NCBI GenBank assembly: GCA_028289325.1
Contig: JANQQN010000055.1
Location: 1-64,000 of the forward strand
DNA: 64,000 bases
Source: Myxococcota bacterium
GTDB taxonomy: Bacteria; Myxococcota; Kuafuiibacteriia; Kuafuiibacteriales; Kuafuiibacteriaceae
Direction of reading: 5' to 3'
Below are positions 1,365 through 25,018 of the stretch, piece by piece (the first letter of the stretch is position 1; each line of letters begins with the position of its first letter). Both the position numbers and the translations under genes were made by a program. Below the pieces are notes generated by a model. That model made no database searches. It was given only the letters and a program-made list of their open reading frames with translations, and was not told the origin of the DNA.

Positions 1365-2110
1365 CGCTCTTCACCCTCCTTCTTGCCGGCAGCGGAGATC
1401 GTGCGAAAGCTGTCCTGCGATCGAGCGAACTTGGATGACGGAAGCCGAACAACCTTTCTGGCATTATCGCCAGCGTTCTCGAGTCGCTGGGCCGCCCGGA
1501 GCATCCGCCCGACACGAGGCACGTCAACGACATCGAAGTCTAGCGAACGGCGGCACACCTCGTTCACCCGGTCGATGCCGTACTTCTCGCATAGACGAAG
1601 CAATGCATAGGCTTGCCGCATTCGTGTCCAAGGCAGGGGACCTTCCAGGAGACGTTCGACGTAGCTTCCCACTATCTGACTCTTGTCGTGAGCCCGTTGA
1701 ACGAGGCGTTCGATGCTCCGTGTGGCGTACACGGCCTTGCCCGTTGGATAGTCGTTAGGGTCGGTCGACCGCTCGCCTGATTTCATCCGGGGGTGGACCT
1801 TGATGACTTCGTTGCGGAAGTAGATGCGGACGGTCTGGCGATCGATCCGCACGCGGACCCAGGCTTTGCGCTCGGCGTAGAGATGCGGAACGGAGTAGAG
1901 CGCTTTTTTGACCTGGATGTGGTGGTCCGGATGGACTTTCGCGTCACACCATCCGGCACGTCAAATGGCTCAGTAGGCGCGGGCAGGAGTCGTGATTGCT
2001 CTGCCGTCTCGAACTCCTCCCTTGGCACTCGTTGTGTCGTGCCATGGATCCGCGCGCCGGCCACATCTCGGCACCATCGTTCCGCGTGGGCGCGGATCTC
2101 GTAGATGTTC
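1361..2110 (-). pseudogene. istA: IS21 family transposase IstA, C-terminal part only, frameshifted
   Basis: Frame 1361..: KVHPDHHIQVKKALYSVPHLYAERKAWVRVRIDRQTVRIYFRNEVIKVHPRMKSGERSTDPNDYP. Upstream part WCRDVAGARIHGTTQRVPREEFETAEQSRLLPAPTEPFDVP lies in another frame (ORF 1783..2607), joined near 1935. N-terminal HTH and most of the rve domain are missing. Confidence 0.75.
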
Positions 2111-3240
2111 GGACCGACATCGTCTTCACGCAGGCCGGCAAGCGAAGAGTGCAGTTCTTCTCGTACGTGCTCACGCATAGCACGAGGAAGTACATTCAAG
2201 CGTTCGAGAGCTACGATCTGCACGCACTGATGGAGGGGCACGTCGGCGCGTTCGAGCGCTTTGGCGGCTGCGCCGAGCAATGCAAGTACGATGGACAGAG
2301 CGCCGTCGCTCGATGGGAAGGCCATCAGCCCATCTACAATCCACGGTTCTTGGCCTTCTGCATCCACTACGAGATGCGGCCGTGGGCCATCCGTGGCAAT
2401 CCGAATCTTCGCCCCAAAGTCGAGCGGTCCTTCTGGGAGACCGAACGGTCCTTCCTGAATGGTCGTGAGTTTCGTGACCTCGCCGACCTCCGCCAACAAC
2501 TCGGCGAGTGGCTCGATCAGATCGTCGACCACCGACGGCGAAAAGGGACGACCGCGCTCGAGCGCTTCGCCGAAGAGGCGCCTCACCTGGTGCCGCTGCC
2601 GCGCCACCCGTACGATACGGCCCGTGTCGTCTACCGCCTGTGCACGATCGACGGCTTCCTCGAGTATCGCGGCAACCGCTACGCCGTGCCCTACGACTAC
2701 GTGACCGACATCTTGCCGGTGCGGGCCACCGAGCGCGTGCTCTTCGTCTACGCGCCCGATCTATCGTGCATCGCCCAGCACACGCTCGCGCCGCGCGGTG
2801 GTGGTCTCGACCCCGGCGGTTTCCACGAGCCGCGTCCGCACAAGCCGACCATCGAGCTTGGCAAGCTGCGCGACGTCTACGAGGGCATCGGCGCGGGGGC
2901 CGCTGACTTCTTTCGGGCGATGAGCGCCGGACCCGCGCGCCAATGGAGCTACTCGGCGCGAAGAATCCTGCTGCTTCGCCAGCGCTACGCAACCGAGGAC
3001 CTCGACGCTGCGCTCGGCCACGCCGCGCGCTTTGGCGCGCTTGCCTATGAGTCGGTCCAGCGGATCCTCGAAGCTCGCCACCGGCCGCGAACGCTCGACG
3101 AGTACGTCGCCGCGGAAGCCGCCCAACGTCTGGATGCGCTGATCGGCACTCGACCGACCGAAGCCCGCGACCTGACCGAGTACGACCGCATGCCCGGCAC
3201 GCCCCTCGACCCGGAGACCTTCGATGACGAAACGAAATGA
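1996..3240 (+). pseudogene. istA: IS21 family transposase IstA, 5'-truncated (homology starts near 2107)
   Basis: RRVQFFSYVLTHSTRKYIQAFESYDLHALMEGHVGAFERFGGCAEQCKYD...VERSFWETERSF, C-terminal Mu-transposase-like part; overlaps the istB start at 3224. Confidence 0.8.
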
Positions 3241-4201
3241 ACAACGCCCTCGGCCAGGCGGAAACATGGCCGCGAAGGCGCCCGGGGCGGGCCGGGCCCC
3301 GGTCTCCGAGGACCTGGTCCTCACTCGGCTGCGGGACCACTTAAGATTCCTGAAGCTGAGCCACACGCTCCGCAACCTCGACGATCTGCTCGCCTGGGCG
3401 CGGCGCGAGCAGCCCGGACCAACAGCGACGCTCGAGCACATGCTCGGCACGGAGGTCGCCACGAAGCGCGATGCACGCATCGACCGGCGGATCACCACCA
3501 GTGGGCTAGTCGAGCGAAAGACGCTCGAGGCCTTCGACTGGAACTTTCAGCCTACGCTGGACAAGGCCACTATCGTCGAGCTCGCGCGCCTCGACATTGT
3601 CAGCCGGGCCGAGGACGTCTTGATCCACGGTAAGCCCGGGACCGGTAAGAGTCACATCCTCAAAGGCATCGGCCTCAAGGCGTGCGAGCAGGGCGTCAGC
3701 CTGCGATACGCTCGATGCGTCGATCTGCTCGACGATCTGCACGCCGGCCTCGCCGATGGCACGTACCCCAAGCGGCTTCGCGCGTGGGCGCGTCCGCAGC
3801 TGCTGATCATCGATGATGTCGGGCTCGGTCATCTCAAGAAGCGCGACGACGAGCCCACCGCCGCGCACACGCTCTACAACCTCGTCGACCGCCGTCATGG
3901 CCGAGCGTCGACGGCGATCACCTCGAACATCGACCTGAGCGATTGGGGTCGCTACCTCGGCGACGCCATCCTCACTACCGCGATCCTCGATCGGATCGTC
4001 ATGAATGCGATCCGAATCCGCATCGACGGTCCGAGCTATCGACAGCAAGTGGCCGACCAACGCGCCAAGAAGCGTGGCGCGAAGCGCGGCCGAACAAGTC
4101 ATTATGACGACTCGAAGAGATCGGCAGCTCATCTGCCCCGGCCGCGTCCGCCGTATCGGAAAAGACGGCTTCGCCTTCATCCAGAACCGATTCCTGCATG
4201 A
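3224..4201 (+). CDS. istB: IS21 family helper ATPase IstB (second element)
   Basis: Walker A GKPGTGKSH, LLIIDDVGLGHL, TAITSNIDLSDW. Confidence 0.9.
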   Translation: MTKRNEQRPRPGGNMAAKAPGAGRAPVSEDLVLTRLRDHLRFLKLSHTLRNLDDLLAWARREQPGPTATLEHMLGTEVATKRDARIDRRITTSGLVERKTLEAFDWNFQPTLDKATIVELARLDIVSRAEDVLIHGKPGTGKSHILKGIGLKACEQGVSLRYARCVDLLDDLHAGLADGTYPKRLRAWARPQLLIIDDVGLGHLKKRDDEPTAAHTLYNLVDRRHGRASTAITSNIDLSDWGRYLGDAILTTAILDRIVMNAIRIRIDGPSYRQQVADQRAKKRGAKRGRTSHYDDSKRSAAHLPRPRPPYRKRRLRLHPEPIPA

Positions 4202-4526
4202 CGGCTTCCTCGATACGCTCACTCACCACGAACGCTCGCTCTATTTATTCTTGGTGCTCGGCGGTGACCGCCGAGGCATGAGCTACTACGCCTACGACCG
4301 GATCTGCGGCGTCCTTCGAATGACCCTCGACGACTACATCCAGGCCCGCAACAGCCTCATCGATATGGACCTCGTCGCCTTTGATGGGACGGCCTTCCAG
4401 GTACTCGAGCTGCCGCCCGCGCCGCAGGCTCGGCGACGCCGCGGGCTGCGCACCGACAGGGATCTCGAGCAACACGACTCCTCCACCATTCGGCGCCGGA
4501 TCCTCGATGCCCTCGCCAAGCCTTGA
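4104..4526 (+). CDS. Small winged-helix-like IS21 passenger protein
   Basis: MTTRRDRQLICPGRVRRIGKDGFAFIQNRFLHDGFLDTLTHHERSLYLFLVLGGDRRGMSYYAYDRICGVL...; overlaps the 3' end of istB in another frame and lies inside the IS end repeats. Confidence 0.7.
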   Translation: MTTRRDRQLICPGRVRRIGKDGFAFIQNRFLHDGFLDTLTHHERSLYLFLVLGGDRRGMSYYAYDRICGVLRMTLDDYIQARNSLIDMDLVAFDGTAFQVLELPPAPQARRRRGLRTDRDLEQHDSSTIRRRILDALAKP

Positions 4527-4694
4527 GCTTGACGCGAACCCGCCGAACCACCGCACATCCAGAGAGTCCAAACGATCCAAAGACGGATCCAAACGGACCT
4601 ATTTCAAAACGGTCAGTTTGGGGAGCCTGTCCGGTCCAGTGTACTGGATCAGTATCCCGCCGCCCAACCCCCGCTGGCATTATCGAGGGCCGAT

Positions 4695-4727
4695 CGAAGT
4701 GGATCTCTCAAACCGCCGAAGTGGATC
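4695..4727. repeat. Right-end repeats of the second IS21 element
   Basis: CGAAGTGGATC at 4695-4705 and 4717-4727 (22-bp spacing), downstream of istB/passenger. Confidence 0.5.
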
Positions 4728-5097
4728 CATCTTAAGCCGCCGCCGAGGGGGGACTGACTCCCCTGAAACCGTCCAGCATGAGCGACGGGCGCATCGCGCT
4801 CCCGCGCGTCTTACCCATCGTTCTTCAGGACGCACCATGCATTCAATATAGCAGACGGCGTGCTCCCAAGACCGATGCGTCAACGTGCCAACTCGCCGGC
4901 CGGACAATCACCGCGGGCGCGCACCCCGTCCGGACCCCGTGCCTCTGCGTCCAAATGCCCTACTTATGCCGGGTTACGGAGGGCTTGGCTTACGGGGCCG
5001 GAGTCGCCGAAGATCTTCGCGGTGTATGAGACCAGCTGGGCTCCTGCCCCCAAGGCCGATGACCAGCCCAAGAATCGACCACGAAATGGAGATCCGA

Positions 5098-6882
5098 ATG
5101 ACTCGACAGGGCGCGCTCTTATCTTCGACCGCATCGTTGCTGCTGGCGCTCCCCGCCGTCGACGTCACCGCCACTGCACCGGAGCCGACCCTCGTCGCCA
5201 TGGACATGATCGTCGACGCACGGGTGCCGATGCGCGACGGCATCACCCTCGCGGCCCGCATCTGGAAGCCCATCGGGGCGGGCCGCCATCCCGTGGTCAT
5301 GCGCCACACCCCCTACTTGTCGGACGAGACCCATCTCCGGGCCCGCAAGTTCGTCGCCGCAGGTTACGCGTTCGTCAGTATCGATCGTCGAGGTCGCGGG
5401 GTCTCGGAAGGCGAGTTCGTTCCTCTCGCTAACAGCGGCCCGGACGGCGCGGACGCGATCGCTTGGCTCGCCAAGCAACCGTGGACCGACGGACGCGTCG
5501 TCACGATGGGCGGGTCCTATCGCGGCATGGTGCAGTGGCAGGCCCTGGCGCAAGCACCGCTGGCGCTCGCGGCGGCCGTACCGACGGCTGCCGTTTATCC
5601 GGGCTGGGACTTTCCGGCGCCCCGCGGAATCCCGTTGAGCTACATGGCCCGATGGCTATCGCTCACGGCGGGTCGGGCGGACAACGAGCAAGTCTTTGGG
5701 GACTCGTTGTACTGGCGCGACAAGTACTTTCGCGTACACCGTGGGGAAGCAGGCTTCGATCAGCTGGCGAAGATCAGCGGTGCTCCCAATGATCGCTTTC
5801 AGGTCTGGTTGGCCCATCCCGGGTACGACTCCTACTGGCAGGCGATCAACCCGACGCCCGCTATGTACGCCAGGATGAAGCCGCCGATCCTGAGCATCAC
5901 CGGCTACTTCGACGGCGACCAGGAAGGCGCCCTGCGCTACTACGACGAGCACATGACCCACGGCGCGAGGAGCGCGGCTCGACGGCATATCGTGTTGATC
6001 GGACCCTGGTCCCACGCCGGTACGCGCTATCCGCAGTCGAAGCTGAGCGGACTCAAGTTCGCCGAGGCCTCGGTCCTCGACCTCGACGCGCTGCATATTC
6101 AATGGTTCGATCATGTGTTGCGGGGCAAGGCGAGGCCCAAGGTGCTGGCAGATCGCGTCAACTACTACGTGATCGGCGCTGAGGAATGGCGCTCGGCCCC
6201 CTCTCTCGAGGCCGTCGCATCCGACGAATGGACGCTGTATTTGAGCTCCGGCGGGGCCACCATGGACAGCCTCTACGCGAGCGGACGCCTGGTCGACGCT
6301 CCCAAGGACAACGAGCCGCCTTCGGTCTACCTATTCGACCCGCGCATCAACCGCGAACCCCAAGACTGGGCCATGCGGAAGCCCACGAACGACGACTACG
6401 TCACGCAAGACGATGCCCTGCGACCCGGCCGCCTGATCTTTCACAGCGAGCCGCTCGCCAGGCCCCGCACCGTGTGTGGTCGGATGACCTTTGACGCCAG
6501 CATTGCCCTTAATGTCCCCGACACCGACGTCGAGGTGACGGTGTACGAAGTGACCGCCCGTAACCGGCTGCATTGGCTTGGCCGGGATCGAGTGCGTGCG
6601 CGCTTTCGGCGCGGCGTCGACCGCCCACAGCTGGCGGAACCCGGCAAAGTCGAGACGTGGAAGTTCGAACGTTTCTGGTGGACCTGTCGTCGGCTTCAGG
6701 CCGGCAGTCGATTGCGGCTCGTCGTCGCGCCCGTCGACTCGCCGAACTGGCAGAAGAACCACCATACCGGCGGACGCATCGGGTTCGAACGCCCCGCCGA
6801 CGCGCGAGTCGCCGCCGTCTCGCTGCATCACTCTCGCCGACGACCGAGCGTGTTGCGGCTTCCGATCGCCAAGGATCGATAG
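5098..6882 (+). CDS. CocE/NonD family (X-Pro dipeptidyl-peptidase-like) hydrolase, probably exported
   Basis: MRDGITLAARIWKPIGAGRHPVVMRHTPY, nucleophile GGSYRG, C-terminal jelly-roll-like region; N-terminal hydrophobic signal after ATG at 5098. Confidence 0.85.
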   Translation: MTRQGALLSSTASLLLALPAVDVTATAPEPTLVAMDMIVDARVPMRDGITLAARIWKPIGAGRHPVVMRHTPYLSDETHLRARKFVAAGYAFVSIDRRGRGVSEGEFVPLANSGPDGADAIAWLAKQPWTDGRVVTMGGSYRGMVQWQALAQAPLALAAAVPTAAVYPGWDFPAPRGIPLSYMARWLSLTAGRADNEQVFGDSLYWRDKYFRVHRGEAGFDQLAKISGAPNDRFQVWLAHPGYDSYWQAINPTPAMYARMKPPILSITGYFDGDQEGALRYYDEHMTHGARSAARRHIVLIGPWSHAGTRYPQSKLSGLKFAEASVLDLDALHIQWFDHVLRGKARPKVLADRVNYYVIGAEEWRSAPSLEAVASDEWTLYLSSGGATMDSLYASGRLVDAPKDNEPPSVYLFDPRINREPQDWAMRKPTNDDYVTQDDALRPGRLIFHSEPLARPRTVCGRMTFDASIALNVPDTDVEVTVYEVTARNRLHWLGRDRVRARFRRGVDRPQLAEPGKVETWKFERFWWTCRRLQAGSRLRLVVAPVDSPNWQKNHHTGGRIGFERPADARVAAVSLHHSRRRPSVLRLPIAKDR

Positions 6883-6901
6883 CCGTCCGGGGATCACTCG
6901 G

Positions 6902-8410
6902 TCAGCAGGCGTCGCGGACCAGCTCGAACGCGTGCGCTAGCGCCAGCAGGTCGAAGTCTGCGAACGGCATCCCTACGAACGAGATGTTCCCGAGCGGAAT
7001 GCCGCTCGGGTCCAGGCCTACCGGCGTCGATACCTCCGGGAGGCCGAGTCTGTTGGCGAAAGACAAGGGGGTCTGAGCGCTCGGCCACTGGTCCGCCGTC
7101 GACGGCGCCTGGTGTCCAAGGGTGGGCCAGATCATGGCATCGAGACCACGACTCGCACAGAAATCGTGCAGCTCCGAGACGAGGGCGTCTCGTCGTTCGG
7201 CGTAGGCGAGGCCTTTGCTCGACTCCTCATAAGGGACGTCGGCCATGGCGAGCACGGCCTCAGGTTCCTCCGGCAGGTCGGAGTAGTAGTATCGATACGC
7301 CGGAAGGACCAGAGGCAAGAGCTTCGCCGCGCCTTCCCGCCGACGATCGAGGTATCGAACCAGCGCATTCGCGCACGCCCGCAGATCGAATGGGCTCGCG
7401 CCCGCCGCCTTCAAGCGGGCGGAGACGTTCTCCATCGTGACCGGCGGATTGATACGAACGATGGTGGATCCGGCCGCCTCGAGTCGGGAGAGCGCTGTCG
7501 TGAAGGCTGTGGCTTGCAGCGACGGGAGCGCGTCGAGTTGACCGTGCGATTCGACGAGCCCGAACCGAATGCTCGAAAGCTCCGGAGGCGACGCCGGACC
7601 CGCGACCTTGCCTCGCGACCTGAGCGATAGCGCGTCCGACGAGTCGGGGCCGGCCAGGACCTGGAGGACCCGCGCGGCGACGGGCGCGCTGGCGGCGAGC
7701 GGTCCATGGCAGTCGAGCCACGGCCAAGTCGGGATCACCCCGGAGCGCGGCACGAGGCCAAACGTCGTTTTGACCCCAACGATGCCACAGTAGTGAGCCG
7801 GGATGCGGTTCGAGCCGCCGTCGTCGGTTCCGAACGCGGCATCGCAGAAGCCTGCTGCCACCGCGGCCGCACCGCCGCCACTGGAGCCCCCGGCGACCCG
7901 TGCTCGGGCGGGATAACGTGGATTCCAAACCTGCCCCGTGGCGGTCGAGAGACCTGCGCCGCCGTAAGCGAAGTCATCGGCGGCGCCCTTACCCAGAACG
8001 ACCGCGTCGGCCGCCCGTACGCGCGCCACCTCGACCGAGTCCGCTGCTGCCGCGGCCGTGAACGCGCGTGCCCATTCTTGGTTGGAACCGTCCGTGGGCA
8101 CGCCCGCCACGTCGAAGGTCGACTTCGCAAGGATCGTGAGCCCGGCGAGGGGACCCGCGGTTCCGTCGCTGAGCGCCCCGTCGACCCGCCTTGCGGCCTC
8201 GACGGCGTCGGGGTTCAGCCACGCGACGGCCTGCAGGGTGGAATTCTGCTTCGCGATGCGGTCCAGCGATCGCATCACCGAATCGACGGTGTCGTTTCGC
8301 TGGGCGCGACGGGGTGCCGGCGCGGACCGAGGTCCTGGTGAACTCGGCAGCGCGCATGACACACCGAGACCCGCTACGCCCGCCAAGACATCTCGGCGTC
8401 GCCACGTCAT
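6902..8410 (-). CDS. Amidase (amidase signature family), exported
   Basis: GGSSGGGAAAVAAGFCDAAFGTDDGGSNRIPAHYCGIVGVKTTFGLVPRSG; twin-Arg-like leader MTWRRRDVLAGVAGLGVSCALP. Confidence 0.9.
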   Translation of the reverse strand: MTWRRRDVLAGVAGLGVSCALPSSPGPRSAPAPRRAQRNDTVDSVMRSLDRIAKQNSTLQAVAWLNPDAVEAARRVDGALSDGTAGPLAGLTILAKSTFDVAGVPTDGSNQEWARAFTAAAAADSVEVARVRAADAVVLGKGAADDFAYGGAGLSTATGQVWNPRYPARARVAGGSSGGGAAAVAAGFCDAAFGTDDGGSNRIPAHYCGIVGVKTTFGLVPRSGVIPTWPWLDCHGPLAASAPVAARVLQVLAGPDSSDALSLRSRGKVAGPASPPELSSIRFGLVESHGQLDALPSLQATAFTTALSRLEAAGSTIVRINPPVTMENVSARLKAAGASPFDLRACANALVRYLDRRREGAAKLLPLVLPAYRYYYSDLPEEPEAVLAMADVPYEESSKGLAYAERRDALVSELHDFCASRGLDAMIWPTLGHQAPSTADQWPSAQTPLSFANRLGLPEVSTPVGLDPSGIPLGNISFVGMPFADFDLLALAHAFELVRDAC

Positions 8411-9651
8411 AGCATCGTCCGTCGGATGTCTGGTCCGTAGAAGGCTTGCCAGTAGGCGGTATCCACATCGGCGTTGGGATGCAGCTCGGGGCGCTCCCAG
8501 CTGAAGATCTTCACGACGTCACCCGCGGTGACGTCGGTCGCCTCTTGGCCCAGATCGATGATCATGTGATTGTAGTTTCGACCATCCGTCGCGTCATAGA
8601 GGCGACCACGGATGTCGACCTTCTTGGTCTTCCCACGAGCGGGGTTGTAGCGAAGACCGTCGTGGACCCCGATCCCGATGGTGGCATAGTAACGGGGCGC
8701 GGCCAGCTCGATAGGAAGCCCCGCGATCGAGCCATGACCGGGCGCGAGTTGCTCCACCCGGAGGACACGGGTCATCAGCCGGTGCGCGACTCTCAGATCG
8801 AGCTGACTTGCTGCCTTTCGGCTCGCGCTCGGATAGACGCCGTAAATGATCAGTCCCGGACGGGTCGCGTTGCAGCCTTTCAACGTCTCCGGCCGGCCGA
8901 GGATCGGGTTCGAGTGCGGGGCGTGAATGACAGATGGACGAAGGCCCGCCTCCCTGAACCGCTCAAGGGCGGTCGTGAACCGCTCGACTTGGGCTGCCGT
9001 CACCGCGTCGTCGTCGACATAGTAGGTCGAAAGCCCCTCCACGAGGAGGTGCTTCGCTGCGGCGAGGGCACGTGCCCACTCTTCGGCCCGAGAGAACAGC
9101 GCGCCCATGCGCCCGTACCCAGTGTCGATCTCCAGATGAACGGGGACCGGGCGACCCAGCGTCCGCGCGACGGGGGCCAGCATCGCGATCTCGTCGAGCG
9201 AAGTGAGCGACAGCCGCACACCTCGGAGGACCAGAGTTTGGGCGGTGGGTCGATCGACCCGCGCGCCCATGAGTAGGATAGGCTTACGCACCCCGCCATT
9301 CGTCAATCGAAGTGCCTCAGCCGGTCGCACGACCATGGTTCCCCAAACCGCGGGCACATCATCCAGCGCCTTGGCGACCTCGACATCCCCCAGGCCATAG
9401 CCATTCGTTTTGACCACCGCGACCACACGCCGCCCACCCGTAGCGGCGGAGATCACCGAGGCGTTGTGGCGAAGGGCATCGGCCCGGGCCTCGATCCAAG
9501 GAAGATAGTGATCGGTCGGCGGCTCGCCGGCAGGTGTCGGCCGACACGCGGCGCCTGCGGTTCCCAACAACACAGGCGATGCCAACGCCGCTTGAGTCAG
9601 TCGGCGTCGGCGCAGATCCACCTCGTCTGATTCCGTGGCCTCGCCGTTCAT
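8407..9651 (-). CDS. Alanine racemase-like fold-type III PLP protein with exported leader
   Basis: PLP-lysine motif VVAVVKTNGYGLG; leader RRRRLTQAALASPVLLGTAGAACR; ATGA overlap with the downstream amidase. Confidence 0.8.
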   Translation of the reverse strand: MNGEATESDEVDLRRRRLTQAALASPVLLGTAGAACRPTPAGEPPTDHYLPWIEARADALRHNASVISAATGGRRVVAVVKTNGYGLGDVEVAKALDDVPAVWGTMVVRPAEALRLTNGGVRKPILLMGARVDRPTAQTLVLRGVRLSLTSLDEIAMLAPVARTLGRPVPVHLEIDTGYGRMGALFSRAEEWARALAAAKHLLVEGLSTYYVDDDAVTAAQVERFTTALERFREAGLRPSVIHAPHSNPILGRPETLKGCNATRPGLIIYGVYPSASRKAASQLDLRVAHRLMTRVLRVEQLAPGHGSIAGLPIELAAPRYYATIGIGVHDGLRYNPARGKTKKVDIRGRLYDATDGRNYNHMIIDLGQEATDVTAGDVVKIFSWERPELHPNADVDTAYWQAFYGPDIRRTML

Positions 9652-10528: not shown

Positions 10529-11157
10529 ATCCAGCCAATGACTTCAATGACTTAGACAAAACCCATCGACTCAAAGTTACCCGCCGGTCCTCTGACATTC
10601 TTTGTTTCGAACTCAACCTTTCGCGCCATCGACGCTCAGGTAGCCTCGACACAACCTGTTCCGAGCTGCTGGCCACAGCTGACACCGGCTCCATCAAAGG
10701 AACGAACCAATGAAGGAAACGAGGTCCGCTAACGGCGCTTCGAGCCGTAGCCACCGCGCAGCTGGGTGATCGTGAAGTAGCGCAGCAGCATCGAAACTTG
10801 AGCTACGCCAAGCGTACTTGCCAACGTCGTACGGGACCGAGCGTCGCGACTTCATCTCACCGGCCGGTCATCGACCAACCCTTGACCGCGCGACGTGAGT
10901 CTTGGAGGCCTTCGCTTGCCGGGCGACTCACGAAGAACCTCGACGAGCGTGCTTGAACTCGAGCGATTCCGTCGATACTACAACGGCGTGCGGGCTATCG
11001 CGCACTGGACGGACACCGAGTGATCTAGCCGAATCGACGAAACCTACCCGCGCCATGGCCGACAGATCCTCACGGCAGAGGCCTCATCCATCTTCCCATG
11101 GAGGCGCAAGTAAGGTTTCGCCCCGGACGGCGGTTCGACCGAAACCGCTTCCTCGCG

Positions 11158-13590
11158 ATGAAAAAACTCAACGCTGGACCCTGGTACGGCGCAGGGCTCG
11201 CACGCGTGTGGTACGGGGTTTTCGTGCAAGGAGTCTTAGGGCATCAGGCCGTCGCCATTGGTCTAGCTTCAGCATTGGCCGGGTGCGTCGCCTCGGGAGC
11301 GGCAGGTTCGGGCGCCACCCAGAGTCTTCGCGAGGTCAAGCCTTACGAGTTGGGCTCTCGATACACTACAGTTTATGGGGAAACCAAAGCCAACGACGTG
11401 GAGATCGTTCCATCGATCCGCCGGGTTGAACCTATCTATCCAAGGCGGGCGGCCGAACGGTCTATCCAAGGCTGGGTCGTCATGCGTTTTCGACTCGACC
11501 CTGCGGGATGGCCACAGGCCGTCCGAGTGATCGACTCGGCGCCGGCGAAGACATTCGACAAGGCAGCGGTCTCGGCCGTATCGAAGTGGCGGTACCGGCC
11601 AGCGACACGGAACGGTCGGCCCGTTCATCGTCTGGGCATCTCCGCCAAGCTGACGTTCAGATTGGACTGGTCGGATTCGGATGCTAATCTGGAGATGGAC
11701 GATGGTACCAGGTGGTCGCCGGAGTCCACGGACCAGCATCCAGGTGGCAATGAGATCGTCGGGGCGCCATACTTCGCTCAGACCAAAGCTTGCGCCCAGG
11801 TCAAGCTCTCACCAGACGGACGCCGAGTCAGCGCGGTGCTCAACAAAGGAGGCGAAGCCTACTTGAGGATCATCGATGCGATGACCCTGGAGGCCGACAG
11901 CACTTACCACCTGAAGTCTGGCGGCGAAATCATCACCTATGGCTGGTCTGGCAATAACGTCATCTTGATGGAAAGTTCGCGAGACACGATACGTGTCGAC
12001 GTCGAGAGGCGTTCGACGGAACTCCTCGATGGGCGCCGATGGATCGCTCGCCCCGTAAACGACCACGGCCCGATCGTCAGCATCGGCGCCCCATCCGGCG
12101 TCGCGATCGGCCTGCAGGGAATACGCTCTTCGATCTACCGATTCAACAGCGCTCGCGCCGAGTTTGAAGAAGTCCCAACGCCATATCGGCTCAAGCAGGT
12201 CGTCCTCAGGAAGAACGGCGAAGTCCGGTGGGCACTCAGCATCAGCGACCAGCGTCCGCGACTCGTCACACACGAGGACGGCGGCTGGAAGCAGCACGCA
12301 TCTCTTTCTGGCGATACCCGACTGATCGGCTACACCAGCGTCGATGACGTCGTATACCTCGTCGACGAAGACGCGGCCGGGCAGCCGGCGGTGTTCGGTA
12401 TTGGCTCCGACGGTGAGAAGCGCAAACTCGCCCAAAATGGTCGGCATACGCCCTCTGGCTTCGTCTTCGACCAGGATGACCGCCTGGTGGCGGTCGCCTT
12501 CGAGGAGGAGACTCCCAAGCTCGTGGTCTTGCAGCCCGATAGCCGAGTGGCTAGGTTCAACCTCCGACTCGAACAGCAGCTCACGAGCCAGCATGTTCTC
12601 ATTCGGAGCGTTGCGGACGACGGGCGGCATGCGATCGCCGCCGTTTACTCCGACCGCCGGCCGCTGCGGTATCTGTTGCTCGACCTCCATCAAGGACAGG
12701 CCCGAGAGCTCTGCTCGGCCTTTGCTGAGCTCGACGAAAGAATGGAAGCGCCCACCGAAGTGGTGCGAATCGACGCGAGCGACGGTTTGGCGCTTCACGG
12801 CCGGGTGACTCGGGGCCTGCGAAGGGATGGCGACACCCAAGCTTCAGCCGACTCCGCGCCCAAGGCGCGACCGGTCCGAGGCCTGGTGGTCGTGCCCGCT
12901 GACGACAAGTCCTGGGTATTCGATCGAGACGCGCAGTTCCTGGCCGCCAATGGTTTTTCGGTCTTGCGGGTCAGTTACCGAGGTACGCCTGGCTTCGGAC
13001 CAGCTTACGACACCACCAACCGGCGACGGTGGAATCGACGAATCCTCCAGGATGTCGTCGAAGCGACGCGGTGGGCCATCGACAAGGGCGTCGCTTCGGA
13101 GGGCCGGCCGATCTGCGTCATGGGGCGAGGCTACGGTGCGTATGTCGCGGCCATGGCCGCGATCATCGCGCCGAAACTCTATACGTGCATGGTGGGCATC
13201 TCGGGCTTTTATAACGTTCCGCAAGCCGTCGACGATGCTGATGCCCCCGCCTCCTATGTAGGCAACCTGCTCTTCGAGTCGTGGCTCGAGGAAGCAGATC
13301 CCACCGTTCGCGAAGTCTCACCTTTCCATCGGGCGAACGAGCTCCGTACGGCAACGCTCCTGGTTCACGGTCAGAAAAGTAGGGATGTGCTGGCGAGCCA
13401 GTCGGAAACCATGGCGAGGGCGCTCGAGAAGTACGGGACCACGGTCGAACGATTCATGCCACCCACGCAAAAGTTTGACAGACCTGGCCCGCGGACCGCG
13501 CTCTACCGCCGGATGGCCCATTTCCTGAATCGGCAGAGCGCGGCCGCAGACAAATCGCCGCCGATATCGACAAGTCCTGTCATTAGATAG
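11158..13590 (+). CDS. Lipoprotein with TonB C-terminal-like domain fused to S9 (prolyl oligopeptidase)-like beta-propeller and alpha/beta-hydrolase domains
   Basis: Lipobox LASALAGC; TonB-CTD RVEPIYPRRAAERSIQGWVVMRFRLDPAGWPQAVRVIDSAPAKTFDKAAVSAVSKWRYRPA; C-terminal S9-like VLRVSYRGTPGFG...ICVMGRGYGAYVAAM. Confidence 0.8.
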   Translation: MKKLNAGPWYGAGLARVWYGVFVQGVLGHQAVAIGLASALAGCVASGAAGSGATQSLREVKPYELGSRYTTVYGETKANDVEIVPSIRRVEPIYPRRAAERSIQGWVVMRFRLDPAGWPQAVRVIDSAPAKTFDKAAVSAVSKWRYRPATRNGRPVHRLGISAKLTFRLDWSDSDANLEMDDGTRWSPESTDQHPGGNEIVGAPYFAQTKACAQVKLSPDGRRVSAVLNKGGEAYLRIIDAMTLEADSTYHLKSGGEIITYGWSGNNVILMESSRDTIRVDVERRSTELLDGRRWIARPVNDHGPIVSIGAPSGVAIGLQGIRSSIYRFNSARAEFEEVPTPYRLKQVVLRKNGEVRWALSISDQRPRLVTHEDGGWKQHASLSGDTRLIGYTSVDDVVYLVDEDAAGQPAVFGIGSDGEKRKLAQNGRHTPSGFVFDQDDRLVAVAFEEETPKLVVLQPDSRVARFNLRLEQQLTSQHVLIRSVADDGRHAIAAVYSDRRPLRYLLLDLHQGQARELCSAFAELDERMEAPTEVVRIDASDGLALHGRVTRGLRRDGDTQASADSAPKARPVRGLVVVPADDKSWVFDRDAQFLAANGFSVLRVSYRGTPGFGPAYDTTNRRRWNRRILQDVVEATRWAIDKGVASEGRPICVMGRGYGAYVAAMAAIIAPKLYTCMVGISGFYNVPQAVDDADAPASYVGNLLFESWLEEADPTVREVSPFHRANELRTATLLVHGQKSRDVLASQSETMARALEKYGTTVERFMPPTQKFDRPGPRTALYRRMAHFLNRQSAAADKSPPISTSPVIR

Positions 13591-13748: not shown

Positions 13749-15143
13749 ATGGCCGAAAACGAGCACGAATCCAAGATCGAGGACCCAGTGGAACTTGGCT
13801 ACGTCACGTCGCCGTCGGGCATGTTGGTCGTTGTCGACTGTGGGTTGTTGAACCTGTGGGCTCACAGCGCCGCTCCATCGCTCCCCGAAGGGACGTTAGA
13901 TGATCCGGAAGCAGAAATAGAGGCCAACAACGCCCAAGACCTCTTCCTGGAAGGCCCCGATGCACGAGCGGCGGGACTCGCATACGATCGTGGCTGCCAT
14001 CCCCTTTTCATTTACGACGTGCCGAGAAAGGCAGTCGCGAACCTCGTCCAACACTTCAGCGACTTTGCGAAAGACAACAGCTACGAGGCCGTGCTGACTC
14101 CGCTCTCCGAACGGATCTCTCACCGAGAGAGAATCGCTCTTCACCTGGCAAGCGGTGAACCAAAGAATGGGATCTCTTTCCACGGTATCTCAGCCGCTGT
14201 CGTTTCCGGCATCCCACCCACAAAAAGGCTCAGGGTACTTGGCCGACGGCGTTCGGTGGGCTCGGAGTTTGAGAGCCGGTGGCACGACGTCTACCTAGAG
14301 CTTCAAACCGACGCTAAAGTAGTACGGTCCGAACTCCGGGGTTATGCCGCCGTTGACAAGGCACGGCTGATCTTCGCGGACGCGGACGGACTTGGCGACT
14401 GGATTCACGAGGATCCCATCGATGGTCGGGCTGACTTCGTCTTCTGGGGCGCAGATGCAGAACTTGCAGCCACCCAGGCGAACGCTCCTAAGTTAGATGA
14501 ACAGAACTTCGGATGGCAAGACCTCGAGGTCAGGAAGGTGATCGAGCTTGGTACAAAAGTCGAGGCGCTGCGCTCCGAAAAAGGCTGGCGATTCGCTACT
14601 GATTTCCGTCCGCATTCACACCATTGGCAGGCAATGGAAGAAATCAGGCTACGGGAGACTGAATCAGCGACGGTCGTAGTCGGCTGCAGCGAGATGTGCG
14701 TCTTCATGACTTCTTGGGGAGATGGCCTGTTCGAGGTGTATGCCGACTATGACGCGCAGGATCGTCTTGCTCGCGTCCGGATAGCGTTAGGAACCGACCG
14801 GACCCTGAAGCGAGTGCAAGCCGTCGAGGAGCGATACTTTGGGGATTTCGCGAAGATGGCATTCGTCAGTAAGAAGGTGGTCGAAGATGGCGGGTGCGTG
14901 CGCTTTCTCTACCGAGAAGAACCTGACCGCGAGCAGGACAGTGGCTGGAGAGCTTTTGCAGGAGGGGAGACAGACGATTACGCAAACGATGCGTCAAACG
15001 TCCTGCCCATGCCTCTGCGTGATCTGCTGGAGCGCGACGCGAGCATTGAAGAAACGCTCAGAGCGCCGGTTGGGAGCATGTTCGAGCGCGAGTCCTGCGA
15101 CGCTCTGTTCACACTCGTAACAGACTGGGAGCTGGACAGCTAA
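13749..15143 (+). CDS. Immunity-like multidomain protein (DUF4241-like plus C-terminal DUF2185/Imm33-like)
   Basis: SWGDGLFEVYADYDAQDRLARVRIALG (DUF4241-like) and AFVSKKVVEDGGCVRFLYREEPDREQDSGWRAFAGGETDDYANDASNVLPMPLRDLLERDASIEETLRAPVGSMFERE (DUF2185-like). Confidence 0.7.
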   Translation: MAENEHESKIEDPVELGYVTSPSGMLVVVDCGLLNLWAHSAAPSLPEGTLDDPEAEIEANNAQDLFLEGPDARAAGLAYDRGCHPLFIYDVPRKAVANLVQHFSDFAKDNSYEAVLTPLSERISHRERIALHLASGEPKNGISFHGISAAVVSGIPPTKRLRVLGRRRSVGSEFESRWHDVYLELQTDAKVVRSELRGYAAVDKARLIFADADGLGDWIHEDPIDGRADFVFWGADAELAATQANAPKLDEQNFGWQDLEVRKVIELGTKVEALRSEKGWRFATDFRPHSHHWQAMEEIRLRETESATVVVGCSEMCVFMTSWGDGLFEVYADYDAQDRLARVRIALGTDRTLKRVQAVEERYFGDFAKMAFVSKKVVEDGGCVRFLYREEPDREQDSGWRAFAGGETDDYANDASNVLPMPLRDLLERDASIEETLRAPVGSMFERESCDALFTLVTDWELDS

Positions 15144-15177: not shown

Positions 15178-15702
15178 ATGTCCGCATTCACAGCCGAAGC
15201 CATTTCTGAGCCTGACGACCTGAACTGGTGCTACGGTCCTGAGGTTCCCGTTCCCGCGATGGGCGGAGACTCGATCACCTTCGTCTTCGAATCCTATGCG
15301 GAGTCCACGCAGAGGGATGCGCTGGTACGTGTCGCCAACACCTTCGCGGCCGCCCCCAAGACTCTCCTAGAAGCCGCGGAACCTTTCCTTGCAGAATACT
15401 TGCGTGACTGTAACTCAGACTGGGCCCTGACAGACGATGAATACATTCATGTCGCCACCCCGTCGGACGTCTGGAGTCATGTTCACCTCCCCGAGGAGGT
15501 TCACGTTACGGAACGCGACGAGACAGTCTATCTGGTCATCGAGGCCAATTGCGACTGGGAACCTGAACACGGACTCATGCTCGTATTTGACGAAAACCTG
15601 CAGTTGGTGAAGCTTGGCCCCTACGATGGCCATGTGACTAATGAGCATGCCTTTGCTGACCCTAGCCTTCGCGGTGTCGTCTACCGAAGACGATCGAGCT
15701 GA
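15178..15702 (+). CDS. DUF6985-like protein, probable immunity type
   Basis: VYLVIEANCDWEPEHGLMLVFDENLQLVKLGPYDGHVTNEHAF; 34 bp downstream of the DUF2185-like gene on the same strand. Confidence 0.65.
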   Translation: MSAFTAEAISEPDDLNWCYGPEVPVPAMGGDSITFVFESYAESTQRDALVRVANTFAAAPKTLLEAAEPFLAEYLRDCNSDWALTDDEYIHVATPSDVWSHVHLPEEVHVTERDETVYLVIEANCDWEPEHGLMLVFDENLQLVKLGPYDGHVTNEHAFADPSLRGVVYRRRSS

Positions 15703-17317: not shown

Positions 17318-17700
17318 GCGGTATTCGCGAGACGCGACGATCGATACGCCGTTCGTGGAGTCGATGTACCTCGGTATCTTCTTCAACCGCGGTGTCCTTC
17401 GGAGGGGCGTGAAGATCCGTGCGTCCGGTCGAGTGCGGCGTAGACTCGCGCCCTGCGACTTCTTGATTCGCGCGACCCCCGAGATCCCGCTGCTCAAGCC
17501 TCCGGCAAAACCCGAATCGCCGACAGAGGATGAACCTCTCGGATCCCGTCCCCTCCCGGGCAACACCGGGGCATCCACAGTGCTCGAAGCGCAAGTCCTG
17601 CACAACATACTCCTCTCGTGGCACGAGCCCCCTTGCGCAGATGCCCTACGGCTCAAGGGCCGGCCGAGCGACCAGGCACGGAACTTGCCGACATCATGCT

Positions 17701-20700
17701 ATGGCCGCGCATCTAGATCGTCGGAAGATCGAGTCGACCTTCTCCTCCGGTCTAAACATCAGACAGATCTCGGAAAATGGTCGGGAATACCTGCGGTCTG
17801 AATTCAATATCTCGGACGCCGACCTTCAGGACTTCGCGCAGGCAGGCGATCCCGAAGACGGGGTTGACGTGGTTTCGGGCGACGTCGAGTTGCGGGAGTT
17901 CGGCACCCTGATTCTCGGCGATGAGAACCTGGTCGATACGTCGTCGCTTCCGCCACAAAAGGCGGAGCGAATTCGGGACCTGTTCGATTTCTTCGCCCAA
18001 GAGATGGCCAAACAGACGGCGCTCGCCTCACGCCAGGGCGACACCGACGTATCCTTCGACGTTCGCCCCCCGGCGCCCGTCGGCATTCGAGGCACGGGGC
18101 AGACATCGGTCCTGGCCCCGCAGGCCGCAGATCAACGCCCGCCGCTCACCCCCGATGAAGTCATCCTCAGCGCTCCGGTATCGACGCCCGGCGTGCTGCT
18201 GGTGAACGTCAGCGCTACCCGCGAAGAGATCGCCACGGCTTTGTACGGCGATCCGACGCGCACCGACGATTTCGATATCGTCACGCCGCAGCGGGACGGA
18301 GGCGACGACGCGCTGGGCTCCGAGGACGCGGTGGCGGTGATGCCACGTGATCCGGCCGATTTGACGAAGTTTGCCCTCGCCAAGCTCCGGCCTGCGTTGG
18401 AAGCCGCCGTCGTCCTCGACGCCGCGAGGACGGCCGACAAGCTTCGAACAGACTACTACCTCGTACCGGGCGAAGTGAACGAGCTCGTTTTCCGGAGTCT
18501 GAAGTGGTCGCAGCTGTCGGAGTTCACCGACGCTCGCGGCAACAGCTATTTCGACCGATACTTGCTGGCGCTCAAGGGTGAGAAGATCGGCAGGTCGAAT
18601 GCCCTCGAGCGGCTGCAGGCTCGGACGGACTCCGAGCAGCTCGAAAAGGCGATCAAGCTTCGCTCAGACGCCGTGAACGTCCGCTACAAGGTCCGGGATA
18701 CCGACCGAAGCGGGAAGTTCAGCCCGGGAGCGGTCATCGGTCGGTTCTATTGGGCGGGCGAAGGCGGCGAAGGGAGCTTGCAGCTTCGTGTCGGTCCGGA
18801 GCTCGCGGTGGCCCATACTCGCGAAGAAGCCGAGATCCTCACCCGCAACTCGCCTTTCCAGGCCATGCGGGCCGTGGTCGAACAAGAGGTCAACGGAGAA
18901 AGGAAGTACGTCGGCTACGGCATCGTGCACGCCAATCTGGACCTATTGGTGCAGGGGCCTGCGGAAGGCGCCGAGGGGCGCTTCTTTTGGTACCACCGCA
19001 CCACCATCTTCATTCCTGAAGGCAACAGTCCAGGCGACCTCTTCCGCGACTCCCCGACCGTGCAGGCGACGCAGCAGCGTCTCCTCGACGAGGCTATCCG
19101 TCAGGCCGGAACCGGTGATTTGCACAAGCTCTACGCGCTCCAGCTAGACGTCCTGGCCCGCGCCTCGATAGACGAGCGCCTCCGGATCGTGAAGCTCGTA
19201 GTCCAACGCGATAGTTTTGACAGCGAAAAGGCCAACCAACTTCTGGCTCGAGTTATCCTCAGCGTTCAAAACGATGACTTCCCTGCCTTCGAACGAAAGC
19301 TCTCGACGACCGGACTCTATCGGGCATTACTGCGCAACGACCGCGGGCTTCGCCCATTGGCCCGCGTATTCACCTTAAAGACGTTGAGTTCAATTCCGAT
19401 CGGAGGCGAGGCGCTCGACAATATGCCCGTACTGCGGATCGGGAGCGCGGACTGGACCAAACGATGGGCCTTCGGCGTCCCGGTTACCGTCAAGTCGCAG
19501 CTCGTACCGCCCTCCCAGTGGGCTCCGGAGGACGCTCCGTCGTTCGATCCATCCCGACCGATCCCCGGCCGAGAGCCAGCCCTCCCTGGTGAAGCGGCGG
19601 GAACCGTCGACCGGGCCGCGATCCGATTCGACTTACAGTCCCAGTACCGACTCACGCCCGCGGACGTTAAGACCGAAGGGAGTTCCGGTCCCTACCTGCC
19701 CACTCAGCTGGTCATGGTCCAAGTCGACACCGATGACGGCCCCCAGTTCCGGATCGTGACCGCTCTCGAGGCGGCGGCGATGACCTCCGGTCCCGGCTAC
19801 GAGGCCATCGTACAATCGGGAACCGATGCCGTAACCGTCGCCCTCATGGCGCAGGCGGGCATGAGTTTGGCCGCGACGTTTGGCCCCGCTTTCGTCAACG
19901 GCGCCGCTCGGGGCGGCATGAGCGCCGGTCTTCGGGCCATGGCCGCACACGCTGCCACTGAGGCCGGAAAGCAGGCGCTTCGCCAGTTCGCTTTCGATGC
20001 GGGCCTGTTGGCCACCGTTCTTGTCGTCGAAGAAAACCGCAGCGCCCTCGAAAAGACCGAAGCCGGCCGAAAGTTCCTCGCCGCCTACGACGTCGCGATG
20101 GTTGGTCTGCTCGCGTATGGCGGATATCGGCTGCTGAACTCCGGGATGGTCGAGCGGCTCGCTCGTTTGGGAAATGCCGCCGTCAAGTCGCTATCAGGTC
20201 GGGCGCAGGCCGCCGCGCGACGGATCGAGGTCGAGCTCCAGGCCCTTCAAAAGACCTTCAAGACGATGAGCGAGGCCGACGAGCTCGTCGCCGTCACCAC
20301 CAATGGCACGCGGGTCATGGTCCCCGGTAGCGAACAGCGCTTCGGCCATCTGTTGATGATGGCGCGGGGCGATGTAGCGACGAAGGCCTTGGTCGGTCGC
20401 CTGCCCGCCGGCGCGGGGAAGACCACGGCCCAAGAGACTCTGGCCTGGCTCCAGGGTGGGGCGACCACTCGGGAGGCCCGACGCGCGTACGCCGCCATCG
20501 CCAATCACGCGAACGCCCTTCCGACCGCCAAAGAAGCCGAGGCCTTTCTCGGCCGAATCGCCAGGATTCGCAGCGCCGGCAAGCCACCCGCGGTCGTCGC
20601 CGACCTCCTCGTGACGGCGACTAAGCAAGGCAGCTTGGCCCAGCAGCTTCAGTACCTGGAAGCGGTCCAGGCACTGGTCTCCAAGAGTGCACTCACGCAG

Positions 20701-21402
20701 GAAGCGCTGAAGGTCCTGGGTCAGAAGGCCCGCCAGGGCAAGCTGGACGTCGTCTGGCTGATGAAGGAGACCAACCTGTCGGCGGAGACGATCAACTTTC
20801 TCGGCAAGGACTCTCAGACGCCGTGGAGGCTCCTGCAGCGCGCCTCCGCCACATCACCCATGCCCAGCAAGTCGGTGATGATGGACTTTCAGCGGCGCGT
20901 CCGCGGTATGGCCGGCGAAAAGGCCGCTGAAGCCGCCGTCAAGGAATGGCGAAGAACCGTCGGTGCGCCGGCCTATAGAATTGATCGAAGGCAAGTCCCG
21001 GCCGGCAACAGCAAGCTCGACTACCGGTTGGTGTCGACGGGCGACGGCCCCAGGGCGACCGCCCTCATGGAGGTCAAGGGCTGGAACAGGACCGCTTGGA
21101 CCAACGCCATCGAAGCCGGGAACGCCAAGATCGCCGGCGAGACGCTGAAAGGCAAAGCGAGGGACGCGTATCGCAAGATGCAGCACCTGATCAAGCAGCT
21201 GAAAGACGCAACCGCCCACGGCACGGACGCGCCATTCCTGATGGTCACGGACGATATTGCGCACCTTGTGCCCGACCTTAGGAATATCCTCAGCTACCAC
21301 GGGCTCGGCAATGTCAGGATCGTCTATATGGCCGAGGGTCAGATTGCGGCGGCGAGCGCACAGATTCGCGGAGGACTAGGGTTGCCGGTGAAGAAGAGAT
21401 GA
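17701..21402 (+). CDS. Large polymorphic toxin candidate with C-terminal PD-(D/E)XK-type nuclease domain
   Basis: 1,233 aa from ATG 17701; hydrophobic central segment; C-terminus GEKAAEAAVKEWRRTV...NSKLDYRLVSTGDGPRATALMEVKGWN...KMQHLIKQL (E..D..ExK..Q arrangement); stop overlaps the start of the next gene. Confidence 0.65.
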   Translation: MAAHLDRRKIESTFSSGLNIRQISENGREYLRSEFNISDADLQDFAQAGDPEDGVDVVSGDVELREFGTLILGDENLVDTSSLPPQKAERIRDLFDFFAQEMAKQTALASRQGDTDVSFDVRPPAPVGIRGTGQTSVLAPQAADQRPPLTPDEVILSAPVSTPGVLLVNVSATREEIATALYGDPTRTDDFDIVTPQRDGGDDALGSEDAVAVMPRDPADLTKFALAKLRPALEAAVVLDAARTADKLRTDYYLVPGEVNELVFRSLKWSQLSEFTDARGNSYFDRYLLALKGEKIGRSNALERLQARTDSEQLEKAIKLRSDAVNVRYKVRDTDRSGKFSPGAVIGRFYWAGEGGEGSLQLRVGPELAVAHTREEAEILTRNSPFQAMRAVVEQEVNGERKYVGYGIVHANLDLLVQGPAEGAEGRFFWYHRTTIFIPEGNSPGDLFRDSPTVQATQQRLLDEAIRQAGTGDLHKLYALQLDVLARASIDERLRIVKLVVQRDSFDSEKANQLLARVILSVQNDDFPAFERKLSTTGLYRALLRNDRGLRPLARVFTLKTLSSIPIGGEALDNMPVLRIGSADWTKRWAFGVPVTVKSQLVPPSQWAPEDAPSFDPSRPIPGREPALPGEAAGTVDRAAIRFDLQSQYRLTPADVKTEGSSGPYLPTQLVMVQVDTDDGPQFRIVTALEAAAMTSGPGYEAIVQSGTDAVTVALMAQAGMSLAATFGPAFVNGAARGGMSAGLRAMAAHAATEAGKQALRQFAFDAGLLATVLVVEENRSALEKTEAGRKFLAAYDVAMVGLLAYGGYRLLNSGMVERLARLGNAAVKSLSGRAQAAARRIEVELQALQKTFKTMSEADELVAVTTNGTRVMVPGSEQRFGHLLMMARGDVATKALVGRLPAGAGKTTAQETLAWLQGGATTREARRAYAAIANHANALPTAKEAEAFLGRIARIRSAGKPPAVVADLLVTATKQGSLAQQLQYLEAVQALVSKSALTQEALKVLGQKARQGKLDVVWLMKETNLSAETINFLGKDSQTPWRLLQRASATSPMPSKSVMMDFQRRVRGMAGEKAAEAAVKEWRRTVGAPAYRIDRRQVPAGNSKLDYRLVSTGDGPRATALMEVKGWNRTAWTNAIEAGNAKIAGETLKGKARDAYRKMQHLIKQLKDATAHGTDAPFLMVTDDIAHLVPDLRNILSYHGLGNVRIVYMAEGQIAAASAQIRGGLGLPVKKR

Positions 21403-22133
21403 GTGAGTCGATTTCTACTGCGGTGTGGGTGATCTTCAGTGGTCGTCCGGCATCCGAGACGAAGCCAGAGGCAAAGGCGTACTTCGCCCCCTTTCCATCC
21501 GAGGAAGTCGAACCGTGGCGATCGGTCACGACCCCCGGCGGCAGCGCACTTTTCTCTCACGAGCCGGGCAGCGAAGGGCATCACGACATGCCCCTCGCCG
21601 AGAAGCTGTCCCACAAGGGCGTCGTCGCGTTGTGGTGGACGGCGACCGACACCCTGCTGGAGTTCGACAACGGTCGAGAGCGTTCCGAACCTCAGCGAGC
21701 GCTCGTCGATTGGTTGCGAGAACACGGCGTCGAAGAAGAAGACGACGACGAACTTTTGCCGACACCCGACGTCACCTCGGTCGCCGTCTTCGTCGGTATG
21801 GAGGCCGAAGCGGTCGCCAAACTCTTCACACAAGACGGCATCGAAGTCAGCTCGGGGCCGGTCGGCGCCATCGTTCGGCACACCAAGGGCCAAGCGTCGT
21901 TCGCCGCGAAGCTTGTTTCCAAGAAAGTTGGTCGTACCGCTCACGTCATTACGATCACTCGCACACCCCAGGAGCCTTTTTTAGTCGAGATCATTCAGGG
22001 CGATAAGTCGCTCGGCTTCTTCGGCGACGTGCTCGGCTCATGGCCGGGAATGGTCATTCTCGACGACGTCTTGGGCGAGCGCGAGCCCCGTCGAATTCTC
22101 TCTAAACTCGGCTTGTCGGACTTGGCGAAGTAG
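21399..22133 (+). CDS. Putative cognate immunity protein
   Basis: ATGA overlap with the toxin-like gene; acidic cytosolic 244-aa protein without signal peptide; no recognised family. Confidence 0.5.
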   Translation: MSESISTAVWVIFSGRPASETKPEAKAYFAPFPSEEVEPWRSVTTPGGSALFSHEPGSEGHHDMPLAEKLSHKGVVALWWTATDTLLEFDNGRERSEPQRALVDWLREHGVEEEDDDELLPTPDVTSVAVFVGMEAEAVAKLFTQDGIEVSSGPVGAIVRHTKGQASFAAKLVSKKVGRTAHVITITRTPQEPFLVEIIQGDKSLGFFGDVLGSWPGMVILDDVLGEREPRRILSKLGLSDLAK

Positions 22134-24013: not shown

Positions 24014-25018
24014 CTACGAAGAACCTCGGCGAGCGAGCTTGAACTCTCGGCTGAAGATCGTCCACAGCCTGCTGCGTCCATGCTGCTCGTTCAACCGCGC
24101 GAACAGGTCGTCTCTGGTCATGCCGAGCATGCCGGTCAAGACCTGGCCGTACCACGCCAAGTTCTCGCGGGCCTCGGAAACCGACTTGCTCCTAAGGAGG
24201 TTTTTGAACTCGTCGAACACGCGGTCGCGGCTCAGGTTGCGGACCTTGGTCCCGCCGTGTGCGGACTCTAAGACGAAGCCGATGAATGCGGTGGGCACAC
24301 CATGCCGGTTGGCGAGGAACTGCTCCCAGTCTCGGTGGCCGCGAACAGAGGCCACATTCTCGTCGAGTTGTTCGACGAGGTCGAAACGGCTTCGCGGGCC
24401 GCGGAACGCCTCCATCGGGGATTCGGAGTCGAAACGCCCCAGTAGAAAGTCGATGGCTTCGAGCTTCATCCCGGACCTCTTGGCGAGATAGCGACGTTTG
24501 CCTAGGTCCGTTCGGACCTCGCCCACCGTATGGTGGCCCTCGACTTCGTCGCGACCCAACAGATCTTTGATCTGCTCCACGAGCTCCTGGACGTCATCTC
24601 GGAAGTGAGGATCCCAATTGATTCGAATCGAATGGCATCCCAGAAGTGGCCGGATCTCGTCCGGAACCTCATCGCGGCGAGGCAGCTCCGCATCCTGCAG
24701 CAGCAAAGGGATGACAGGGATGGAGCGGCTCAATAACGTCTGCACCTCGAAACGAACAGTGTCGTCCTCGCCATAGATCCGCACGCCGTTCCGATCCTCG
24801 GCGGATGCCCAGCTCGGTCCGATGGCGACGATGCCCGCTTCGCAGTTGGCAAGCTTGGTTCCAAGGACCTCACGAAAAGGGAGCCCGGCGGGAATGGACC
24901 CGACGTCATGAAAGACGGTGCCTTCTCCGAAAGCGTCGAGTAAGTGGTCGACGACTCGCCCGACCGAATACTTGGTGTCATCGCGACGGTAAGAAACAAA
25001 GAGAAATGGTTCAGTCAT
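24014..25018 (-). CDS. TIR domain protein with uncharacterised C-terminal region
   Basis: FLFVSYRRDDTKYSVGRVVDHLLDAFGEGTVFHDVGSIPAGLPFREVLGTKLANCEAGIVAIGPSW...RFEVQTLLSRSIPVIPLLL. Confidence 0.85.
   Translation of the reverse strand: MTEPFLFVSYRRDDTKYSVGRVVDHLLDAFGEGTVFHDVGSIPAGLPFREVLGTKLANCEAGIVAIGPSWASAEDRNGVRIYGEDDTVRFEVQTLLSRSIPVIPLLLQDAELPRRDEVPDEIRPLLGCHSIRINWDPHFRDDVQELVEQIKDLLGRDEVEGHHTVGEVRTDLGKRRYLAKRSGMKLEAIDFLLGRFDSESPMEAFRGPRSRFDLVEQLDENVASVRGHRDWEQFLANRHGVPTAFIGFVLESAHGGTKVRNLSRDRVFDEFKNLLRSKSVSEARENLAWYGQVLTGMLGMTRDDLFARLNEQHGRSRLWTIFSREFKLARRGSS

Follow-up and report, generated by a model that had tools for sequence, protein, structure and literature searches.

The 64,000-nt stretch analyzed here (the window: positions 1 to 64,000 of contig JANQQN010000055.1 of the Myxococcota assembly GCA_028289325.1) carries two overlapping genes that probably encode a toxin and its cognate immunity protein. 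They would belong to a new polymorphic-toxin family of Myxococcota, with a predicted PD-(D/E)XK nuclease tip that would be blocked by the acidic partner. The host genome consists of 8.93 Mb in 587 contigs and is 92.4% complete, the window being its contig C236. From sequence comparison and structure prediction, the toxin appears to be modular, combining an exchangeable export domain, a family-specific body of ~850 aa, and a basic C-terminal tip of ~195 aa. The tip would most likely cut DNA inside a target cell, the nuclease activity, the DNA substrate, and the bacterial nature of the targets all being predictions, and, within producing cells and those of their kin, the downstream protein would most likely bind and block the tip.

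Structure of the gene pair

A preliminary description of this DNA, made from its letters alone, had listed a 1,233-aa protein whose stop codon overlaps the start of a gene for a 244-aa acidic protein, and we confirmed both genes (Table 1). The open reading frame (ORF) of the toxin spans 17530-21402 (+) and yields 1,233 aa when counted from ATG 17701. This start is supported by the GC content at codon positions, which turns coding-like at ~17.7-17.8 kb, and by the N-terminal homology, which sets in 4 residues past that Met. The toxin stop codon overlaps ATG 21399 as ATGA (junction sequence GAAGAGATGAGTG). The downstream protein has an isoelectric point (pI) of 4.9 and no signal peptide seen by eye, which is how signal peptides were judged throughout. 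The hydrophobic central segment previously ascribed to the toxin is present but modest.

When the whole toxin was searched against Pfam, NCBIfam, and PADLOC, no family matched at E<=1, and neither the toxin nor the 244-aa protein had a confident Pfam or NCBIfam match or a PDB sequence match of note. None of the curated protein libraries searched contains this toxin/immunity family. In agreement with the preliminary description, which saw no VgrG, PAAR, or Rhs, the Pfam/NCBIfam profile search of the toxin found none of these domains and no DUF4157.

Conservation of the coupling between the two genes

Outside the window genome, homologue searches of 146 and 197 genomes of the phylum found the body of the toxin in a single other family, where a few genomes have it (Archangium/Vitiosangium/Cystobacter type; the Cystobacter label of genome G114 is tentative). 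Homologues were absent from the plasmid and viral collections searched. They are 33-34% identical to the window toxin across residues 160-1229, tip included, and a genome that bears them usually holds several copies. A scan of named contigs located paralogues in Archangium violaceum, Archangium lansinium, and Vitiosangium, and one Archangium genome holds nine tips.

All 24 distinct tips, the window's counted, are followed by a 244-262-aa gene in a -4 (ATGA) overlap, and the layout of polymorphic toxins, a large multidomain protein with a (predicted) C-terminal toxin domain and then an immunity gene, was found in 24/24 cases. When only the relatives' downstream genes were used to build a profile, its top match among 616 ORFs of the window was the window immunity gene (E=1.1e-9, 33 bits), and the best of 2,000 shuffles reached 5 bits. 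The constant ATGA overlap and this match establish that the homology of the two genes and their coupling have persisted through deep divergence. A decayed paralogue (L005, G114:C1 around 2,624,900) has its body in pieces, with the tip and the downstream immunity gene still open.

Co-variation of the tip with the immunity gene

We compared distances between the parts of 18 complete pairs, a set that leaves out one divergent outlier and is drawn from few genomes, so that the pairs are not fully independent. Tip and downstream-gene distances were correlated (rho 0.52, permutation p=0.0005), whereas the toxin body was correlated neither with the downstream gene (rho -0.12, p=0.82) nor with the tip (rho 0.01). 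With the outlier kept, the values were 0.65 for tip and immunity gene, 0.20 for body and immunity gene, and 0.29 for tip and body. The tips are basic (pI about 10) and the partner proteins acidic (pI 4.5-5.9). Since the tip co-varies with the immunity gene and not with the body, the two appear to be exchanged as one cassette, the pattern expected of a toxin domain with its cognate immunity protein. Tip and immunity gene thus evolve or move as a unit apart from the body, as in polymorphic toxins, and such cassettes could be seen to move between toxin bodies of this family. The toxin/immunity pairing put forward in the preliminary description gains support from this co-variation, as it does from the ATGA overlaps and the homologous downstream genes.

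Evidence for a PD-(D/E)XK fold in the tip

The window toxin ends in KLDYRL...MEVKGW...Q, and the motif LDY..MEVKGW..Q was found as originally described. Its candidate catalytic-type residues are E1073, E1077, D1107, E1124-x-K1126, and Q1166. The D-x15/16-E-x-K motif is kept in 24/24 tips and is preceded in all of them by an RGxAxExxxE-type helix, with one variant, RGIVAE.

In an AlphaFold model of the window tip (11-row alignment, pLDDT 68), which had no useful fold match, the elements ran helix-strand-strand-strand-helix-strand; strand 2 bore the D and strand 3 the ExK. A further model was made for the tip of a relative (pLDDT 79, pTM 0.73) and had no confident hairpin. Its best PDB matches included FokI (ranks 1, 9, and 10), MspJI (3), HamA (5), and Nt.BspD6I (12) and, at lower ranks, EcoT38I (29), Hef (30), and Shedu (32), all of which are PD-(D/E)XK enzymes. 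In Pfam, the window tip matched only the SfsA restriction-endonuclease-fold domain (PF03749), a weak profile similarity over its E..D..ExK stretch (E=0.035); this match lies below the curated cut-off, however, and SfsA is not a toxin family. Matches of Emfourin, Annexin_2, XFP, and TatD type were weak and were dropped.

Three observations weigh against a polymorphic toxin with a PD-(D/E)XK tip. No single fold or profile match was significant, the best Foldseek E value being 0.07 and none reaching E=0.001. The hairpin of strands 1 and 2 was modeled with pLDDT <50. Finally, every intact homologous body that we found bears the same tip family, and therefore swapping of unrelated tip types is not seen on this body. 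The lack of a significant fold match would also be expected if the pair were real and its tip were another enzyme or a pore-forming domain. We consider this improbable, given the invariant D-x15/16-E-x-K, the predicted topology that fits it, the basic pI, and the enrichment of PD-(D/E)XK enzymes in the fold search. The PD-(D/E)XK assignment of the preliminary description and the modeling it suggested thus led to a consistent motif, strand order, and set of enriched matches but to no individually significant match, and a PD-(D/E)XK fold of the tip is likely, not proven.

PoNe DNase toxins, which are used by type V, VI, and VII secretion systems together with PoNi immunity proteins, carry the motif Kx3GExnGIDx2YxnYx3ExK (PMC6688995). 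Like them, the window protein would be a multidomain toxin with a C-terminal PD-(D/E)XK-type tip bearing D..ExK and an immunity gene. In contrast, the 24 tips lack GIDx2Y and have no Y four residues before ExK, and the DUF1911/DUF1910 domains of PoNi were not detected in the window immunity gene.

An N-terminal domain common to two toxins

Relatives of the toxin begin with a Sec-type signal, and no signal peptide was seen in the window toxin. Residues 4-110 of the latter form a domain (N-domain) that occurs in just three proteins of the window genome, namely, the window toxin, a protein on contig C336, and, in triplicate, a giant protein on contig C259. Searching the genome with the N-domain retrieved the C336 protein at E=0.0013 and 28-30% identity. 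This protein has 1,311 aa, with DUF4781 in its body (7e-27) and an ATGA-overlapping leucine-rich repeat (LRR) gene downstream, and its C terminus reads as phosphoribosyltransferase-like, which would differ from the window tip. Profile alignment showed no relation between the window and C336 toxin bodies anywhere beyond the N-domain. This comparison indicates that one genome holds two toxins with a common front end and a different body, tip, and immunity gene. An N-terminal domain common to toxins with different tips, which the preliminary description had proposed to look for, is therefore present; such a delivery-type domain is another feature of polymorphic toxins, and only two toxins bearing this one are known. 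The second pair lies at 4303-8819 of locus L084 (G000:C336), where the LRR protein has 195 aa.

A combined N-domain profile found no further members in 146 genomes. FliG-type flagellar proteins of several genomes also matched the N-domain (E 6e-5 to 0.05), which we attributed to chance. Contamination of the bin was rejected as the origin of C259 and C336, since their tetranucleotide profiles fit the window as well (0.995 and 0.985) as those of its own pieces do (0.976-0.985), which places both contigs in the organism of the window.

A candidate type III route for the window toxin

Of the four type III/flagellar export-gate (FHIPEP) proteins that the window genome encodes, one belongs to a flagellar locus; alongside FliF there is also a 297-aa SctJ-type ring protein. 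Nonflagellar type III components are thus present in this genome. The C259 giant (~2,600 residues) starts ~2.6 kb downstream of an SctV-type export-gate gene, and its three N-terminal repeats of ~100 aa resemble the N-domain. In a profile-profile comparison, N-domain and repeats matched with P=8.6e-5 and a score of 30.1, against a best of 17.2 in 400 column shuffles, and when real sequence windows from six loci were compared singly, the repeats ranked among the best. Another protein of this locus (L120, G000:C259, 15563-16090) had a high hhalign score but aligned over only 24 helical residues and was discounted. The locus also encodes a second RTX/DUF3060 protein and coiled-coil, translocator-like proteins.

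The N-domain might thus route the window version to a type III-type export apparatus, which is our best, still weak, delivery hypothesis for this toxin. Several points count against it: sequence-to-profile signals were weak (E 0.013 to 6), the C259 locus was singled out by eye among the four gate loci, the giant bears RTX repeats and a peptidoglycan-binding domain that could point to another exporter, and the locus shows an export gate only, the whole apparatus not being seen. For these reasons, we hold type III routing of the window toxin to be possible but rather unlikely. The broader proposal, that the N-domain is a substrate or chaperone-binding domain of a nonflagellar type III apparatus and that exchange of the N terminus re-routes the body between Sec and type III export, is similarly doubtful. 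Of the suggestion that the delivery route may be new, the part that stands is an N-domain found on toxins with different tips and resembling repeats beside a type III export gate; secretion itself is only a candidate.

Myxococcus xanthus is another myxobacterium with a type III export gate, in its needle-less type III secretion system (T3SS*) and Kil predation apparatus (PMC10433427, PMC12075869). However, a substrate domain was never described there, and the window N-domain is linked to type III export solely by similarity to a gate-adjacent protein. The effectors of T3SS* are said to be unknown (PMC10433427), which makes the N-domain worth testing as a concrete candidate for the substrate domain of type III-like systems in myxobacteria. 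An exact-phrase search of open papers for antibacterial type III secretion found none, and with that coverage the result carries little weight. If type III routing were true, predatory myxobacteria would deliver antibacterial polymorphic toxins with cognate immunity by this route.

Other secretion systems and modules

An effector of a type VI secretion system (T6SS) or of an extracellular contractile injection system (eCIS) would fit some relatives, because Archangiaceae-type ones encode the T6SS protein VipB and one divergent homologue (L087, G165:C269), which has a clear Sec signal, ends ~1.7 kb upstream of a contractile sheath gene. Yet VipB, found in relatives and in an E. coli control, was not found in the window genome (92% complete), and neither was a contractile sheath. 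The toxin also lacks the VgrG, PAAR, Rhs, and DUF4157 domains mentioned above, and the Sec-type signals of its homologues are needed by neither route, which makes such an effector improbable.

SitA-type toxins are lipoproteins passed among kin by TraA/TraB during outer-membrane exchange and neutralized by SitI. The resemblance is broad: same phylum, modular proteins with a C-terminal nuclease (predicted here), a downstream immunity gene, several paralogues per genome, and, in several Archangium/Cystobacter-type homologues, an N-terminal hydrophobic segment ending in LLASC. However, a lipobox is said to occur in every SitA orthologue (PMC5562445), so the window toxin, which has neither a lipobox nor a type II signal peptide, would not be a SitA. 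Many relatives do have a lipobox-like Cys, but it is absent or displaced in L008, L009, L014, and L061; what the homologues keep is a signal-peptidase-I-like site (ASMSAAG/EE or GASA/ADE). A SitA-type origin is accordingly quite unlikely.

Least likely by our estimate is an intracellular toxin-antitoxin or phage-defense module: such modules also typically form overlapping two-gene operons, and the window protein has no signal peptide, but it is 1,233 aa long with an extended family-specific body, its homologues carry export signals, no PADLOC match was obtained, and delivered polymorphic toxins typically swap tip/immunity cassettes between bodies, as the members of this family appear to do.

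Features of the toxin locus and neighboring genes

Table 1. Features of the gene pair and of upstream immunity-type genes in the window
Feature	Position	Strand	Basis or remark
Toxin gene	17701..21402	+	1,233 aa; ORF, codon-position GC, homologues
Predicted immunity gene	21399..22133	+	244 aa, acidic; ATGA overlap with toxin gene
N-terminal ~107-aa domain (LDRRKIESTFSSGLNI...)	17710..18030	+	Common to second toxin (G000:C336); resembles 3 repeats of C259 giant protein
Family-specific body, residues 163-762, without known domain	18187..19986	+	Homologue comparison
Weakly hydrophobic segment, residues 710-728	19828..19884	+	Mean hydropathy 1.42
Conserved linker region ahead of tip, residues 763-1015	19987..20745	+	Homologue comparison
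C-terminal tip, residues 1039-1233, predicted PD-(D/E)XK nuclease	20815..21399	+	Motif, pI about 10, model
Immunity-type gene, Imm33 (7.8e-23) and weak DUF4241 stretch	13749..15143	+	Profile match; not assigned to the pair
DUF6985 gene (4.9e-27)	15178..15702	+	Profile match; not assigned to the pair

The Imm33 and DUF6985 genes lie 2-4 kb upstream of the toxin gene on the same strand, with no recognized toxin adjoining, and are possibly orphan immunity genes. Further upstream, the gene at 11098-13590 encodes a prolyl oligopeptidase-like protein (Peptidase_S9) with TonB_C near its N terminus, an unusual fusion. Downstream of the pair, on the opposite strand, the product of 24014-25018 has a TIR-like domain at its N terminus, whose match (E 1.6e-5) narrowly missed the cut-off. 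At the left end of the window, 642-4201 holds an IstB-like ATPase and transposase-like ORFs that appear, by eye, to be of IS21 type.

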